Shown here one piece after another: positions 15,365 through 63,963 of a stretch of 64,000 nucleotides of DNA (positions are counted from its first letter, which is position 1; the number at the start of each line of letters is the position of its first letter). The stretch covers positions 62,001 through 126,000 of the forward strand of contig NZ_JAJGTZ010000044.1 of assembly GCF_020784725.1 (NCBI RefSeq). Direction: 5' to 3'. Both the position numbers and the translations under genes were made by a program. Source of the DNA: Limosilactobacillus reuteri (GTDB taxonomy: Bacteria; Bacillota; Bacilli; Lactobacillales; Lactobacillaceae). The notes under the pieces were generated by a model, which was not told where the DNA came from, searched no databases, and saw only the letters and a list, made by a program, of their open reading frames with translations.

Positions 15365-15390
15365 AGGACTTGTAAAATTATAAAACGTTT

Positions 15391-15502
15391 GTCTTCAAGG
15401 CGCGGTGAAATTCCCGACCGGCGGTGACAGCCCGCAACCCATTGCTAATGGTTGATCTGGTGTAATTCCAGAGCCGACAGTATAGTCTGGTATAAAGAAG
15501 AT
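15391..15502 (+). ncRNA. FMN riboswitch (RFN element)
   Basis: The leader carries the conserved RFN pieces in order: GGTGAAATTCCCGACCGGCGGTGAC, then AGCCCGCAACCC, and GTAATTCCAGAGCCGACAGTATAGTCTGG (each part cited is split by variable loops), closed by GTCTTC at 15391 and GAAGAT at 15497-15502. FMN binding would favour the terminator that follows and reduce riboflavin transporter expression. The element begins about 20 bases after the predicted transcription start. Confidence 0.95.
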
Positions 15503-15535
15503 TTCTGTATTAAATAATCTTTAAATAGTTTATTT

Positions 15536-56476: not shown

Positions 56477-58396
56477 ATGAAAAAGCATTGGAAATTACGT
56501 TTTACTCTCTCCTTATTAGTTCCTTTAGGGTTCAATTTATTTTATTCTTTACCAATTCATGCATCTGAGGCAGCTGAAACTAACATTCAAACTGATGTTA
56601 AAGTTGATGCTCAAAGTTCAAAAACGATTACGAGCACTGAAAACCAATCCGCTCTTGCAACTGCACAACAAGTTAAAGATCAGCAAGTTGATAGTCAACA
56701 GCTAGTTGATAATACATATCAAAAAGTAGAGCAAAATAAGGATCTTAATAGTGTGATTTATCAAGATCCAGTAAATGCAAGCCAACAAGTAAATGCTTTA
56801 CCAACTACAACCTCTAATTCAGAGCAACCTTTTTACGGGGTGCCAATTCTAATTAAAGGGTTGGGACAGGCATATAAAGGGTATCCGAATACGAATGGAC
56901 TGCCGTATATGCAAGATAATCGTTATGGCTACACTAAAAATTTTGTAGCAAAGTTACAGGAAATGGGGTTCGTAATTGTTGGTGAAACAAATTATCCTGA
57001 GTTAGGATTAATTAACGTGACTGATTCTAATTTATATGGGCCTGCGCATAATCCGTGGGACCTCACGCGAAATGCCGGCGGGTCTTCTGGCGGAGCGGCA
57101 GCAAGTGTGGCTGCTGGAATAGTACCGATTGCAACAGGAAATGATGCTGGTGGTTCCTTAAGAATTCCTGCTTCGTGGTCAGGTGTAATTGGGTTAAAAC
57201 CTACTCAGGGAATTATTCTTGGGGATTCATTAACACCCTCAGTGGTTAACTTTGCGGAAACGCGGCGGATTGATGACACGATCAAGCTATTTGAAGGATT
57301 AATGGATCCAAAGCGCAAATCATTATTAAAAGAATTTCCACTTAAGCTTCAAGATTTAAAAATTGCATATTCATTAAAATCGCCAGTTGGCTCCGTTGTC
57401 AGTCCTGATGCTGAAAAAGCAGTTCTGAATGCAGTGGCCTTTTTACGGCAACAAGGTTTCCAAGTAGTCGAAAAGGATAGTCCGGTTAATGGAGTAAAGT
57501 TGATGCGTGCTTACTATTTAGGTGCCTTGAGCGATGGAACTGTTGCCAATTATCTAGCCCAGCAAAAACTGCATCGTAATCTACAAGCTAGCGATGTTAC
57601 AGAGCATGTGGTTAGTCCAATGACATATGCACTATATGAAGCTAGTAAAAAAGCACCTAAAGAAATAAAGCAAACTTATAATAATGAACTGGCATTAGTT
57701 GCGGCTCAGATGAAGAGTTTTCATGAAGAATATCCGATTTATTTAACGCCAACTACCGCAACAGTCGCACCGTTAAATTCTGATCCGGCATTTTTACCAG
57801 CAGATGTTGCTAAAATTTTGCAAATGGCTAATATGCCTTTTGATCAACAAATGGATGTTATTTACAATGCTTGGTATCATGGGTTAAGCAAAACGCCATT
57901 TACGCAATTAGCTAACTTAGCAGGAGAGCCAGCATTAAGTTTGCCAACCTATGTTAACGCACAAGGATTACCATTGGGGATTCAGCTAGAAGGAGAAAAG
58001 GGCAGTGATCTGATTTTATTAGCATTAGGAAAATTGTTTGAAGAAAAGGATAAATTAATCTTCCGAAGCGATTACCAAAAGTTAAATAATGATGCTCAAC
58101 CTAGTGAGCAACAAAATAAAGACGCAGCAAATATCTCAAAAGTTGTTGTACACAATTTAGGCGAAAAAGCGGTTTATGAATTTCAAGCTGCCCCAAGTAA
58201 GCTTAATTTTTCAAATGATGTTAGTCCCAAAGATGCGGTAAGAACTTCAAAACAAGCAAACGCTAGGAAATTACAATCGACAAATGAAAAGCAATTACCC
58301 CAAACAGGATCAGATAATAATGAGTTAGTTTTGCTTGGGTTGGCCCTATTCCCCTTCAGTTTGATGAGTGTATACCAAAATAAGCGAAAATTTTGA
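56477..58396 (+). CDS. Cell-wall-anchored amidase-signature enzyme (LPQTG)
   Basis: A 639-residue secreted protein. A signal peptide (about 1-30, ending IHAS) is followed by a Gln/Asp/Ser linker (31 to about 75) and a full amidase-signature domain (about 80-520). The Ser-cisSer-Lys triad is present: Lys127 (VPILIKG), Ser203 (GGSSGG), Ser227 (GNDAGGSLRIPAS). A C-terminal linker leads to the sortase signal LPQTG (607-611), a hydrophobic stretch and NKRKF. Amidase-signature enzymes are normally cytoplasmic, so an exported, wall-attached form is unusual. Likely substrates are external amides; not determinable here. GGAGG precedes the ATG. Confidence 0.9.
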   Translation: MKKHWKLRFTLSLLVPLGFNLFYSLPIHASEAAETNIQTDVKVDAQSSKTITSTENQSALATAQQVKDQQVDSQQLVDNTYQKVEQNKDLNSVIYQDPVNASQQVNALPTTTSNSEQPFYGVPILIKGLGQAYKGYPNTNGLPYMQDNRYGYTKNFVAKLQEMGFVIVGETNYPELGLINVTDSNLYGPAHNPWDLTRNAGGSSGGAAASVAAGIVPIATGNDAGGSLRIPASWSGVIGLKPTQGIILGDSLTPSVVNFAETRRIDDTIKLFEGLMDPKRKSLLKEFPLKLQDLKIAYSLKSPVGSVVSPDAEKAVLNAVAFLRQQGFQVVEKDSPVNGVKLMRAYYLGALSDGTVANYLAQQKLHRNLQASDVTEHVVSPMTYALYEASKKAPKEIKQTYNNELALVAAQMKSFHEEYPIYLTPTTATVAPLNSDPAFLPADVAKILQMANMPFDQQMDVIYNAWYHGLSKTPFTQLANLAGEPALSLPTYVNAQGLPLGIQLEGEKGSDLILLALGKLFEEKDKLIFRSDYQKLNNDAQPSEQQNKDAANISKVVVHNLGEKAVYEFQAAPSKLNFSNDVSPKDAVRTSKQANARKLQSTNEKQLPQTGSDNNELVLLGLALFPFSLMSVYQNKRKF

Positions 58397-59503: not shown

Positions 59504-61267
59504 ATGGTAAAAAACTATCATGTTGATAATGTAACGATAGAAGAAATTCTTGGTTGGATTAAACAGGGGAAAATTGGATTGCCAGAAATGCAACGTCCAT
59601 TTGTTTGGTCCACAGCAAAGGTTAGAGATTTAATTGATTCACTATATAATGGTTATCCTATTGGATATATCGTTACATGGCAAAATCCGGCAATAGGATT
59701 AAAGAATGATTCATCATCCAATAATAAAGAGATTATTATTGATGGACAGCAGAGACTGACAGCTTTAAAAGCAGCTCTCAGTGGCGAAAAGGTTGTATCT
59801 CAACAATACATAACTAAACGAATAAAGATATCATTTAAACCAAGTACTGGAGAGTTTAATACTTTAAACAGCGCAATTGAGAAAGATCCATTATGGATAA
59901 ATGACATTTCTGATATTTTTAAGTCAGATTTTAATTCTTATTCGTATGTAACAGATAATGCAAAAAAGTTAGGAATGGCACCAGAAAATTTAGGGGCTAC
60001 TTTACAGAAATTGCTTGCAATTCGGCAGTCTGAAATAGGTGATATCAAACTAGGATATAACCTAAGCATTGGTGCGGTTACTGATATTTTTAATAGAATT
60101 AACTCAAAAGGTGTTTCCTTATCATCTGCGGATTTAGCAATGTCACGTTTATCTGCAGATACAGTTCACGGCGGTAATAACTTAAGAAAACAAATTGAAT
60201 ATTTTGTACAGCTTCTGAATGATCCAAATTTATTAGAAAATATCGTGAAATTTGATTCTGACTTTGCTAACACCAAAGAGTTTAACCAAATTAAGTGGAT
60301 TGCAAGTGAGGTAAATCCAATATATAAGCCTAGGTACGCAGATATTCTGCATTTAATCTTGGCAACTTCATTTAAACGTGGGAAATTATCAGATATGGTT
60401 AGCTTAATTTCTGGACGTGACTTTGAAGCACGAAATTATAGTGAAGAAGGAATGAAGGCTAATTACGCAAAAATGCAAATAGGAGCTACCTTAGTCTTTA
60501 ATAAATCTAATTTCCAACGTTATTTGATGATTCTTCGTGATATGGGGATGCGAAATAGTGGCAAACTTGGATTAGTGGGGCATGGAGTGTTTAACTTTGG
60601 CTACATTTTATTTCTTTATCTTCATCGAAGTACTAATCTCTCCCAAGAAAAGATTGCTTCATATTTGAAACGATGGATTATTATGTCAGCATTAACCGGA
60701 CGTTACAGTGGATCTTCAGAAACTATCACAGAAAGTGACCTAAAGATGATTAGTCGTGATGCAAATCCAATTAATGTTCTGGATGATATTTTAGATCGAG
60801 AAATGAATGATTCATTTTGGAATGGAACTTTGCCAAATATGCTACGAGTTCAATCTACTCAAGCATCGAGCTGGCGGATTTTTCAAATGTCACAGATCTA
60901 TGGAAAAGATACTGCTTGGCTAGCAAAAGATACATCAACAGAAACGGTAATGTTAGAAGAAGGGAATATTCATCATATATTTCCACAAGCATACTTACGT
61001 AAAAATGGTTTTTCAAAAGGTGATATCAACCAAATCGCAAATTATGTTTGGGTTACTCAGCCAAAGAATTTAGAGATTAGTGATAAGGCCCCTAAAGATT
61101 ATTTAAGTGATAAGAATATTACTGAGTTTATGTCAGAAACAAATAATAATGAAAATGCAATTCCAGAAGAAATAGTTGATTATGATTTTCATAACTATAG
61201 CGACTTTCTAAATCAACGTCGCCATTTAATGGCAAAAAAGATGCGTGAATTTTATGAAAATATGTAA
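59504..61267 (+). CDS. DUF262 and HNH-type (GmrSD-like) protein linked to type I RM
   Basis: A 587-residue protein. The N-terminal DUF262 domain (1 to about 230) shows IGLPEMQRPFVWS, LYNGYPIGYIVTW and the DGQQRLTAL motif (80-88), a ParB-like nucleotide site in GmrS. The C-terminal region has HHIFPQAYL (from His490) and NYVWVTQPKNLEISDKAP, the spacing of DUF1524-type HNH nucleases. So one chain carries GmrS- and GmrD-like parts. GmrSD enzymes cut modified DNA; function here is inferred. It precedes hsdM by 17 bases on the same strand and is probably in one operon with it. Confidence 0.85.
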   Translation: MVKNYHVDNVTIEEILGWIKQGKIGLPEMQRPFVWSTAKVRDLIDSLYNGYPIGYIVTWQNPAIGLKNDSSSNNKEIIIDGQQRLTALKAALSGEKVVSQQYITKRIKISFKPSTGEFNTLNSAIEKDPLWINDISDIFKSDFNSYSYVTDNAKKLGMAPENLGATLQKLLAIRQSEIGDIKLGYNLSIGAVTDIFNRINSKGVSLSSADLAMSRLSADTVHGGNNLRKQIEYFVQLLNDPNLLENIVKFDSDFANTKEFNQIKWIASEVNPIYKPRYADILHLILATSFKRGKLSDMVSLISGRDFEARNYSEEGMKANYAKMQIGATLVFNKSNFQRYLMILRDMGMRNSGKLGLVGHGVFNFGYILFLYLHRSTNLSQEKIASYLKRWIIMSALTGRYSGSSETITESDLKMISRDANPINVLDDILDREMNDSFWNGTLPNMLRVQSTQASSWRIFQMSQIYGKDTAWLAKDTSTETVMLEEGNIHHIFPQAYLRKNGFSKGDINQIANYVWVTQPKNLEISDKAPKDYLSDKNITEFMSETNNNENAIPEEIVDYDFHNYSDFLNQRRHLMAKKMREFYENM

Positions 61268-61284: not shown

Positions 61285-62817
61285 TTGGCAACAAAGTCTA
61301 AAGAGCTAAATATTGAAGATAAATTATGGAAGGCTGCTGATGCATTACGTGGAAGCATGGATGCATCAGAATATCGTAATGTTGTATTAGGATTAATTTT
61401 TCTTAAGTATGCGTCGGATTCCTTTGATGAAAGAAGACAAGAGCTTTTAAAAACAGAATATCCTGAAGATGCAGAAGATCCAGACATGTATCTAGAAAAT
61501 AATATTTTCTGGGTTCCTCAAGAGGCTCGTTGGTCAAAAATAGAACATGCTGCTAAAACACCTCAAATTGGTGAAGTAATTGATGATGCAATGACCGCGA
61601 TTGAAAAAAGCAATGATTCATTTCGAGGGATTTTGAGTAAAAATTATGCTTCACCAGATCTTGATAAAACACGCTTGGGTGAAGTAGTTGATTTAATTTC
61701 GGACATTAAGGTTGGAACTAAAGAATCTACAGATAAAGATGTTTTAGGTCGTGTTTACGAATATTTCTTAAATGAATTTGCTAGCCAAGAGGGTAAACAT
61801 GGTGGTGAATTCTATACACCACGGTCAATTGTTAAAATCTTAGTTGAAATGATTGAGCCTTATAAAGGACGTATTTATGATCCTTGTTGTGGTTCAGGTG
61901 GAATGTTTGTTCAATCAGAAGAGTTCGTTCGTCATCATCAGGGAGAGTTGAAGGATCTTCACGTATTTGGTGAAGAATCTAACCCAACTACTTGGAAATT
62001 AGCCAAGATGAATTTAGCGATTAGAGGAATTGATAGTGATTTAGGCCCCCACCAAGGAGACACCTTCACTAATGATTTACATAAAGGTGTTCGTTTTAAC
62101 TATATTTTGGCTAATCCACCATTCAACATTAAAAATTGGGGTGGCGAAAAGCTTCAAGAAGATGCTAGATGGAAATACGGTGTTCCACCAACAGGAAATG
62201 CAAACTATGCCTGGATCGAACATATTATTAGTAAATTAGCACCAGATGGGAAAGCAGGCTTTGTCTTAGCTAACGGTGCCTTATCGACTTCTAATAAGGA
62301 AGAATTTGCTATTCGTAAAGCGATTTTAGAAGATGATAAGATTGATGCAATTGTTGCTTTACCTGAAAAAATGTTTTATTCGACAGGAATTCCAGTTTCA
62401 TTATGGTTTATTGATATGAATAAGGAATCTGAGGATGAACGCTCGCGAAAGGGTGAAACATTATTTATTGATGCACGTAATTTAGGTGAGATGATTGATC
62501 GAACTCATCGTGCATTTAATGATGATGATATTAAAAAAGTAGCGGATACTTACCATGCTTACCGTGGTACAAATGATCAAGAATATAAGGATGTTGCTGG
62601 CTTTTGTAAAATTGCGAAGTTAGATGAGATTGCAAAAAACGATTATGTATTAACTCCTGGCCGCTATGTTGGTCTTGCTAAACAAGAAGACGATGGCGAA
62701 CCATACGAAGTTAAAATGAAGAGACTAACTAGTGAATTAAAAGAACAATTTGAGGAAAGTAACAAGTTACAAGCCCAAATTAAAGATGTATTGAAGGAGC
62801 TTGGATATGAAATTTAG
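61285..62817 (+). CDS. hsdM: Type I restriction-modification DNA methyltransferase subunit
   Basis: A 510-residue N6-adenine methyltransferase. An N-terminal helical domain (10 to about 140) is followed by HGGEFYTPRSIVKILVEMI, SAM motif I DPCCGSGG (199-206) and catalytic motif NPPF (277-280). The C-terminal coiled coil contacts HsdS. The TTG start at 61285 has TAGGAG 8 bases upstream. Its last 11 bases overlap hsdS. No hsdR is seen in the window. Confidence 0.96.
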   Translation: MATKSKELNIEDKLWKAADALRGSMDASEYRNVVLGLIFLKYASDSFDERRQELLKTEYPEDAEDPDMYLENNIFWVPQEARWSKIEHAAKTPQIGEVIDDAMTAIEKSNDSFRGILSKNYASPDLDKTRLGEVVDLISDIKVGTKESTDKDVLGRVYEYFLNEFASQEGKHGGEFYTPRSIVKILVEMIEPYKGRIYDPCCGSGGMFVQSEEFVRHHQGELKDLHVFGEESNPTTWKLAKMNLAIRGIDSDLGPHQGDTFTNDLHKGVRFNYILANPPFNIKNWGGEKLQEDARWKYGVPPTGNANYAWIEHIISKLAPDGKAGFVLANGALSTSNKEEFAIRKAILEDDKIDAIVALPEKMFYSTGIPVSLWFIDMNKESEDERSRKGETLFIDARNLGEMIDRTHRAFNDDDIKKVADTYHAYRGTNDQEYKDVAGFCKIAKLDEIAKNDYVLTPGRYVGLAKQEDDGEPYEVKMKRLTSELKEQFEESNKLQAQIKDVLKELGYEI

Positions 62818-63340
62818 GTTATCTGAAATTGGCAAGGTTGTTGGAGGTGGAACGCCATCAACTAAACACCCAGAATATTATACTGAATTAGGAATTCCAT
62901 GGCTTACTCCTAAAGACTTGAGCGGATATAACAAGATGTTTATAGCAAAAGGCAGTAGGAGTATAACACATGAGGGATTGGCGAAGTCTAGCGCTAAATT
63001 GCTTCCTGCTAATAGCATTTTAGTCAGTTCTCGTGCTCCAATTGGCTACGTAGCTATTGCTAAAAATACCATTGCAACTAATCAGGGATTTAAAAGCATT
63101 ATTCCTAACGAAAAGTTAGTAATTCCTGAGTATTTATACTTTGTTATGAAAACTAGTAAACAAGATTTAGAGCAAATAGCTTCTGGATCAACTTTTAAGG
63201 AAATTTCTACTAAAGTCATGTCAAATTTTGAAGTTGATATACCCAGTTTAGATGAGCAGAAGAAAATATTAAGATATCTTTTACCAATTACCAGAAAAAT
63301 AGAGAAGAATAGTAAGATAAATGATAATTTAATGGTTTAG
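62807..63340 (+). CDS. hsdS: Type I RM specificity subunit, N-terminal half (split by inversion)
   Basis: A 177-residue HsdS piece with one target recognition domain (SEIGKVVGGGTPSTKHPEYY, IPWLTPKDLSG, SSRAPIGYVAIA) and one conserved helix (LDEQKKILRYLLPITRKIE). Full HsdS has two such halves and about 380-420 residues. The frame stops right after INDNLMV. The ATG at 62807 has AAGGAG 8 bases upstream, and the start overlaps hsdM. A half-size HsdS can sometimes act as a dimer, so partial activity is possible. The missing half lies downstream on the other strand. Confidence 0.92.
   Translation: MKFRLSEIGKVVGGGTPSTKHPEYYTELGIPWLTPKDLSGYNKMFIAKGSRSITHEGLAKSSAKLLPANSILVSSRAPIGYVAIAKNTIATNQGFKSIIPNEKLVIPEYLYFVMKTSKQDLEQIASGSTFKEISTKVMSNFEVDIPSLDEQKKILRYLLPITRKIEKNSKINDNLMV
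63318..63331 (+). repeat. Inversion repeat, left copy
   Basis: TAAATGATAATTTA in the end of the plus-strand hsdS half, coding in the frame I-N-D-N-L. It is inverted at 63937-63950. Confidence 0.8.
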
Positions 63341-63963
63341 AAAAATTTATTTAATATCTCATTCCTCAGGGCAGTAAGTATTACATTCTGCTTTGAATTC
63401 TGTGTAATCAATAATAAAAGTTCTCCAATTTTATTTATTTGATCAATAGTAAAATTATCAAGAGTAGGAATAGGTAAGTTGCGTAAAGTTGATAATGATA
63501 TAAATTGTTGCGTACTGCCTGACAGATGAGAATTTATATAACTTTGCCCTTCTTTACTAATTAGATAAAGATAGACTAGGTTAGCAAGATCCGATGTTTC
63601 TCCTGCTTTAATTAAACCGACATTTTTTATTGCAAAGTTGACTGGATTTTCTATAACTTTATAGATAATACCTACTGTTCCAATCATACTAACAAGAATA
63701 TCATTTGTATTAACCTTACTTCTCTTATTTATTTCCTCAAAATCAAGTTTTGAAATTAACTTTGTTTTAGAAAAGTCTATGGTATTTTCTTTTATAGCTT
63801 TAGATGTAACAAGAGGGTAACCAGTTTTTTGCTGTTTAGGAGAATTATGAGTCCCATCTCGTACATCTAATAGTTTTTTCAAAGCAACATATTGTTCTTT
63901 CTTAACAGAATCAAAATATGCAGTTGTAAATTTAAGTAAATTATCATTTAATCTACTAAGCAT
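63337..63963 (-). CDS. hsdS: Silent HsdS second half, opposite orientation
   Basis: A 208-residue frame from 63963 to 63337. It has a second target recognition domain (LLDVRDGTHNSPKQQKTGYPLV, NDILVSMIGTVGIIYKV, INSHLSGSTQQFISLSTLRNLPIP) and a C-terminal conserved helix (FTIDQINKIGELLLLI) like the end of a normal HsdS. It begins MLSRLNDNLLKF. There is no good ribosome site upstream and a stop lies in frame 12 bases before the ATG. Its 3' end overlaps the plus-strand half by 4 bases. It looks like a stored cassette waiting for inversion. Confidence 0.8.
   Translation of the reverse strand: MLSRLNDNLLKFTTAYFDSVKKEQYVALKKLLDVRDGTHNSPKQQKTGYPLVTSKAIKENTIDFSKTKLISKLDFEEINKRSKVNTNDILVSMIGTVGIIYKVIENPVNFAIKNVGLIKAGETSDLANLVYLYLISKEGQSYINSHLSGSTQQFISLSTLRNLPIPTLDNFTIDQINKIGELLLLITQNSKQNVILTALRNEILNKFF
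63937..63950 (-). repeat. Inversion repeat, right copy
   Basis: TAAATTATCATTTA on the plus strand, exact inverse of 63318-63331. Both copies have the same codon phase (second base of an Ile/Leu codon), so recombination fuses the halves in frame. Confidence 0.8.

Follow-up and report, generated by a model that had tools for sequence, protein, structure and literature searches.

SsuCC20p of Streptococcus suis is a Type I system in which TRD2 and TRD4 are each flanked by 14-bp repeats (TAAATCATCATTTA/TAAATGATGATTTA) and for which xerD-dependent switching has been demonstrated (PMC10790761, mBio 2023). According to the portions of that report drawn on here, one complete hsdS is present in every complete-locus S. 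suis assembly, neither assemblies nor reads of S. suis showed the two-complete state, and an hsdS behind xerD is active in methylation (PMC10790761). The 'coordinated double recombination' put forward there is presented as the authors' speculation, and how two concerted changes arise is left open (PMC10790761). As far as the same portions go, its describers found the locus in streptococci only, with no flipped xerD in S. suis and with five S. agalactiae strains in which xerD is inverted and the repeats are lost (PMC10790761). More broadly, restriction subunit S and tyrosine recombinases are reported to be over-represented in one group of gut invertons (PMC11892184), and similar recombination systems are said to be widespread (PMC4948785); judged by the parts of these two earlier surveys considered here, they may include loci of the kind described below.

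Here we analyse a Type I restriction-modification operon of Limosilactobacillus reuteri at the 3′ end of the window, the whole 64,000-nt stretch of NZ_JAJGTZ010000044.1 that was studied. Set beside SsuCC20p by its published description, the locus is a lactobacillus member of the same kind. We propose, with a probability of about 0.85, that its recombinase acts at four copies of a TAAA-N6-TTTA site and that the usual change is an exchange of cassettes in which one complete HsdS and one half are kept. Added here are breadth beyond streptococci, a generalised site and a quantified one-on/one-off rule.

Anatomy of the locus and its 14-bp site

The genes run in the order hsdM, hsdS1 N-half, silent reversed TRD2 half, tyrosine recombinase, full-length hsdS2 and hsdR, such that hsdM and hsdR enclose two hsdS with the recombinase between them. 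The recombinase, the complete hsdS2, hsdR and the third and fourth site copies all lie just beyond the window end; they are given in the numbering of locus L003, to which 58000 is added to obtain window numbering.

61285–62817, plus strand: hsdM, methyltransferase subunit; 510 aa, TTG start; Pfam N6_Mtase (5.8e-111) and HsdM_N
62807–63340, plus strand: hsdS1 N-terminal half (first recognition domain); 177 aa, ATG at 62807; Pfam Methylase_S (2.1e-33)
63318–63331, plus strand: site A, TAAA-TGATAA-TTTA; exact TAAATGATAATTTA
63337–63963, minus strand: segment x, the silent, reversed TRD2 half; 208-aa frame; Pfam Methylase_S (2.9e-06)
63937–63950, minus strand: site B; exact TAAATGATAATTTA
L003 6006–6980, plus strand: tyrosine recombinase; 324 aa; Pfam Phage_integrase (2.6e-33); NCBIfam NF040815 above cut-off
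L003 6987–8042, plus strand: hsdS2, complete; 351 aa; Methylase_S in two stretches (2.8e-25)
L003 7435–7448, plus strand: site C, inside hsdS2; exact 14-mer
L003 8048–8061, minus strand: site D, just after the hsdS2 stop; exact 14-mer
L003 8096–11221, plus strand: hsdR; HSDR_N, SWI2_SNF2 and T1RH-like_C; TIGR00348

The initial annotation had described a 177-residue hsdS1 with one recognition domain, a complementary half on the minus strand and an exact 14-bp inverted pair within in-frame N-D-N-L codons. Each of these was recovered: hsdS1 stops at 63340, two codons past site A, and sites A and B each read N-D-N-L in frame. Inverting the segment in silico gave the 374-aa HsdS and the 11-aa remainder of the minus frame that it had claimed, and the hsdR and tyrosine recombinase for which it suggested inspecting the following DNA are both present past the window edge. 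Sites C and D flank the second half of hsdS2 (segment y), and in the state found in this genome the N-half of hsdS2 (N2) is joined to y, making hsdS2 complete, while x is silent and hsdS1 is a half. The annotated idea of a recombination-driven HsdS switch at short repeats is upheld by the four sites, the recombinase and the exchanged states in relatives; that of a locus standing 'off' and awaiting restoration is not, because hsdS2 is full length. An inversion between A and B would therefore add a second complete HsdS.

Tyrosine recombinases of this family share the residues R, H-x-x-R, H and Y, and the recombinase of this locus carries an intact catalytic set (R182, H272, R275, H298 and Y307). 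In an alignment of 53 loci, which replaced a motif scan judged too strict (28/53), the R is present in 53/53 and the H, R, H and Y in 50/53, the three exceptions (L044, L046 and L136) having gaps in the matched piece. Six loci (L111, L125, L127, L128, L129 and L131) belong to another branch of the same recombinase family, with CAAA-N6-TTTG-like direct repeats flanking the recombinase and no more than a distant HsdM; shuffling there is possibly of the excision type.

The 14-mer TAAATGATAATTTA has four exact copies in the whole genome (2,004,827 bases), all within 2.75 kb at this locus, and its reversed control has none in the same bases, a clustering well beyond chance. Within the window alone the pair is mildly unusual (a mean of 0.24 expected with up to one mismatch; two reached in 4 of 100 shuffles). 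The four sites stand in the order + − [recombinase] + −, and both 3′ TRD halves are thus bracketed by inverted pairs; the other inverted pairs listed at the locus are short and imperfect, leaving one site sequence in four copies.

Across four-site loci the site generalises to TAAA-N6-TTTA, with 6-bp centres among 53 loci of TGATAA (24), CGATAA (14), TCATCA (6), TACTAA (4), CAAGAA (3), CAATAA (1) and TAAGAA (1). On the outer side that lacks an N-half there is little conservation past the 14 bp (at most 0.58 bits per position), and a conserved GCGGCTTAR at the end of each segment provides stops on both strands. In 36 of 47 loci the unjoined N-half is read for six codons, counted from the first motif residue, before it reaches a stop. 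We rejected the idea that the repeat reflects nothing but protein-level conservation of I-N-D-N-L: sites B and D lie at the far ends of their segments, D past the hsdS2 stop; the low outer-side conservation contradicts it; and so does a centre that varies between loci and is common within a locus, although this last point is partly built in, a shared centre having been the criterion for collecting sites. In the window locus an exact inverted repeat running through a site reaches at most 17 bp, and in 29/53 loci this maximum stays below 20 bp, so a survey with a 20-bp repeat threshold, as described for one survey of REBASE (PMC7394358), could miss such loci.

Several neighbouring features were also recorded. 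A DUF262/GmrSD_N gene (59504–61267, plus strand) lies immediately 5′ of hsdM; this stretch aligns in L005 and not in the near-identical locus L076, and so appears to be additional cargo that the defence operon can lose. Further upstream in the window are an FMN riboswitch (15387–15506, plus strand; 97.1 bits) and a frame (56477–58396, plus strand) whose protein ends in LPQTG plus a hydrophobic tail. Judged by eye, we take the latter product to be amidase-like, secreted and probably cell-wall anchored.

One joined segment among relatives

A recombinase-based scan of a genome collection yielded 47 loci. Searches of genome sets whose samples overlap gave matches in 15/397 genomes of the family, 7/398 of a phylum sample and 2/17, 2/13, 8/61, 15/189 and 2/21 genomes of further groups. 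From plasmid and phage collections 12 and 4 stretches were taken, the bulk of the matching records (3430 from plasmids and 241 from phages) being distant recombinases, and IMG/VR gave 28 loci on 25 contigs, 4 distinct ones having four sites. Among 105 scored loci, four sites of one kind were present in 57, or 53 after removal of duplicates (L078, L087, L097 and L108); with the four from IMG/VR this makes 57 distinct four-site loci including that of the window, all in the order + − + −. The other 48 of the 105, in which the site count was not four, the contig was truncated or the recombinase belonged to another branch, stayed outside the counts, as did one of 18 places (G867:C10) and three HsdM-match places (G186, G237 and G353). 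For L044, L079 and L110 the state was read by eye off the translations, and visual calls were likewise used for the four IMG/VR loci (one, L150, with a weak hsdM match). L102, which lacks hsdM on its contig, took its orientation from its N-half. Hosts comprise lactobacilli, plasmids of lactococci, enterococci and L. salivarius, and many Clostridia, gut ones included.

The two segments point in opposite directions, giving one complete and one half hsdS, in 54 of the 57 distinct loci, and in 46/49 and 40/43 when loci are clustered at 95% and 90% recombinase identity; binomial p values for these counts assume that loci or clusters are independent. The three with both segments in the same direction are L007 (both forward), L091 (both reverse) and L044 (both forward, with recombinase and hsdS damaged). 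The two-complete-HsdS state is seen in L007 (1/57), whose two segments are 100% identical, and the no-HsdS state is likewise found in 1/57. In loci of the usual geometry the left segment is forward in 24 and reverse in 26. On a recombinase tree that was quickly made, has 20/47 inner branches open and predates the settling of L044, L079 and L110, at least 17 switches of the joined N-half were counted, against two changes of parity and three of recombinase direction. Such frequent change of the joined N-half indicates that the one-joined rule is not frozen ancestry.

The recombinase itself is flipped in 5/57 four-site loci, L005 among them, a configuration that reads as the product of one long inversion, so single recombination events do occur. 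L005, with hsdM and hsdR proteins at 99% identity to those of the window locus, has its recombinase flipped together with N2.

Partial loci outside the counts either look opposite (L019, L032, L109 and L124), hold a single segment (L012, L018, L034 and L099) or have lost the right cassette (L090). L141, L151 and L156 depart from the four-site layout: L141 has two forward sites and each of its hsdS is joined, L151 has three forward ones, and L156 has five sites with two joined hsdS. Nine recombinase-free relatives were examined. Two (L166 in G296 and L168 in G331) consist of hsdM-hsdS-hsdR and keep a pair of intact sites flanking the 3′ TRD (TRD2), as would be expected for a locked deletion product between direct sites; L165 has N letters in hsdS, L167 is cut by the contig end and the remaining five (L169–L173) have no such site pair.

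Probable exchange between cassettes

With x the left and y the right 3′ recognition half, each between an inverted pair of sites, two kinds of cassette exchange can be envisaged. An antiparallel exchange would recombine A with D and B with C, converting N1x to N1y, and a parallel one would recombine A with C and B with D, converting N1x to N2x. After either, one half would still be joined to an N-half while its counterpart stays silent, so that the cell would produce a single complete HsdS among four possible ones (N1x, N1y, N2x or N2y) plus a half-length HsdS. By the same reasoning, inversions A–D and B–C and the paired A–C plus B–D exchanges should keep the one-joined rule, whereas an A–B or C–D inversion alone should break it. 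Given 54/57 rule-keeping loci, the data favour exchange between cassettes.

Near-identical loci provide direct comparisons; where they have segments in common, the unambiguous differences are cassette exchanges. In the single-contig assembly G286 the final ~51 kb repeat the first ~51 kb, as happens when a circular assembly is left untrimmed, with 99.9% and 99.84% identity over two 20-kb stretches (3 and 0 mismatches, 16 and 32 gap openings). Its two copies of the locus (L078 and L079) differ by exchange: both segments swap place and direction, the recombinase is unmoved and the breakpoints fall at the sites. One TRD2 segment in G286 is interrupted by a 285-aa frame, transposase-like by eye (L078 5822–7421), and the segment so interrupted was still exchanged at the sites. 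Antiparallel exchange with breakpoints at the sites also separates the L. cremoris plasmids pJM2A and pUCCL627F, and it separates L015 from L016 for the one segment common to both. In pJM1A, L029 and L007 both cassettes hold the same TRD2, as crossover between differently switched copies would give.

Two further comparisons bear on the inversion of the A–B segment alone, by which hsdS1 would alternate between a half and a full-length subunit and which the initial annotation had taken as the event at this locus. Between L. cremoris pJM1A and pJM2A the left segment is reversed in place, and between L011 and L079 the same left segment stands in opposite directions, so an A–B inversion remains a candidate for these pairs; moreover, the sites, the frame and the 374-aa product are all exact and the pair should be chemically recombinable. 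In both pairs, however, the right segment differs as well (replaced in the plasmids), which could stem either from A–B inversion combined with another change or from successive exchanges, and no compared near-identical pair differs by A–B inversion alone. Because hsdS2 is already complete, the product would be the two-HsdS state, whose occurrence in 1/57 loci suggests that A–B inversion alone is probably not the usual event; even in L007 the identical segments are explicable by crossover between differently switched copies. We regard this inversion as an improbable account of the switch.

Another reading dispenses with any special mechanism: all site pairs would recombine freely, and selection would retain cells with one complete HsdS, since two would restrict unmodified sites and none would leave no defence. 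It explains 54/57, predicts the same statistics as exchange and accommodates the rule-breaking states of L007 and L091, yet the lack of HsdS should often be harmless and is seen in 1/57, and long reads of S. suis cultures, in which selection had little time, reportedly lack two-complete forms in the account available (PMC10790761); we consider it unlikely. The half-length HsdS1 might itself be functional, forming a dimer with its own palindromic specificity such that two activities exist in every state. The clean six-codon stop of the unjoined N-half and the conserved stop region at the segment end would suit this, as would the half-length HsdS of Type IC systems, described as working with palindromic specificity (cited in PMC10030836), but the stop may merely close the frame, and S. 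suis methylation motifs are, as reported, explained by complete alleles (PMC10790761), and we find such a role doubtful. A decayed, static split gene with chance repeats has the split frame alone in its favour and was rejected as exceedingly improbable in view of the intact frames and catalytic residues, four site copies here with none elsewhere in the genome and alternate states in relatives.

Exchange between cassettes is our preferred reading. The window locus is a real phase-variable Type I system and probably an active one, in which the recombinase is presumably functional and the exchanges would be double events; we infer further that parallel exchange occurs and that methylation specificity changes with state. 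In a stricter form of the proposal, same-cassette sites (A–B and C–D) would practically never recombine, paired four-site exchanges would be hard-wired and the rule conserved across Bacillota, rule-breakers arising through crossover between differently switched copies. We advance this form tentatively, at somewhat short of even odds; if true, 'one specificity at a time' would be built into the recombinase.

Comparison with known systems

The initial annotation had pointed to pneumococcal ivr-type loci. As described, the cod/ivr locus (SpnIII, PsrA) shares with ours a Type I system, a tyrosine recombinase, a 15-bp repeat among those used and inversion of TRDs, and differs in having three hsdS genes, repeat pairs of 15, 298 and 85 bp and one expressed hsdS with silent donors (PMC4948785, PMC7096588). 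Membership was rejected, as the window locus has one site sequence in four copies; the likeness in system type, recombinase and short repeats holds, with SsuCC20p the closer match. The pneumococcal tvr locus (SpnIV, TvrR) resembles ours in its order of hsdM, S pieces, recombinase, S pieces and hsdR, and its shuffling by excision and reintegration can be counted as a further likeness, but its repeats are reported to be all in one orientation and of two types (~18 and ~70 bp, with an ~11-bp core), and it has extra toxin-antitoxin genes (PMC6265443). With two plus and two minus copies, not all direct, the window locus was not assigned to it. LreRMII (LsrA), from Limosilactobacillus reuteri itself, is likewise of Type I, with a recombinase between two hsdS and exchange of TRDs; it differs in that each of its two hsdS is listed with one 5′ and one 3′ TRD, the conserved regions number two, and hsdR opens the locus while hsdM closes it, and the 14-bp four-site layout is not described in the portion of the report considered (PMC6122466). 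Literature searches, mostly at abstract level, returned no report of the four-site kind in lactobacilli.

In every feature compared with the published description of SsuCC20p (gene layout, bracketed 3′ TRDs and one complete hsdS), the window locus agrees with it. The site ends TAAA/TTTA are common to both, with centres of TCATCA in SsuCC20p and TGATAA here, and whereas flipped xerD was not reported in S. suis, the recombinase is flipped with sites kept in 5/57 of the loci surveyed. With loci of this layout found in lactobacilli, on plasmids of lactococci and enterococci and in many gut Clostridia, the question of double exchange becomes testable in food-grade strains. Collectively, loci of the SsuCC20p type extend past streptococci to other Bacillota.
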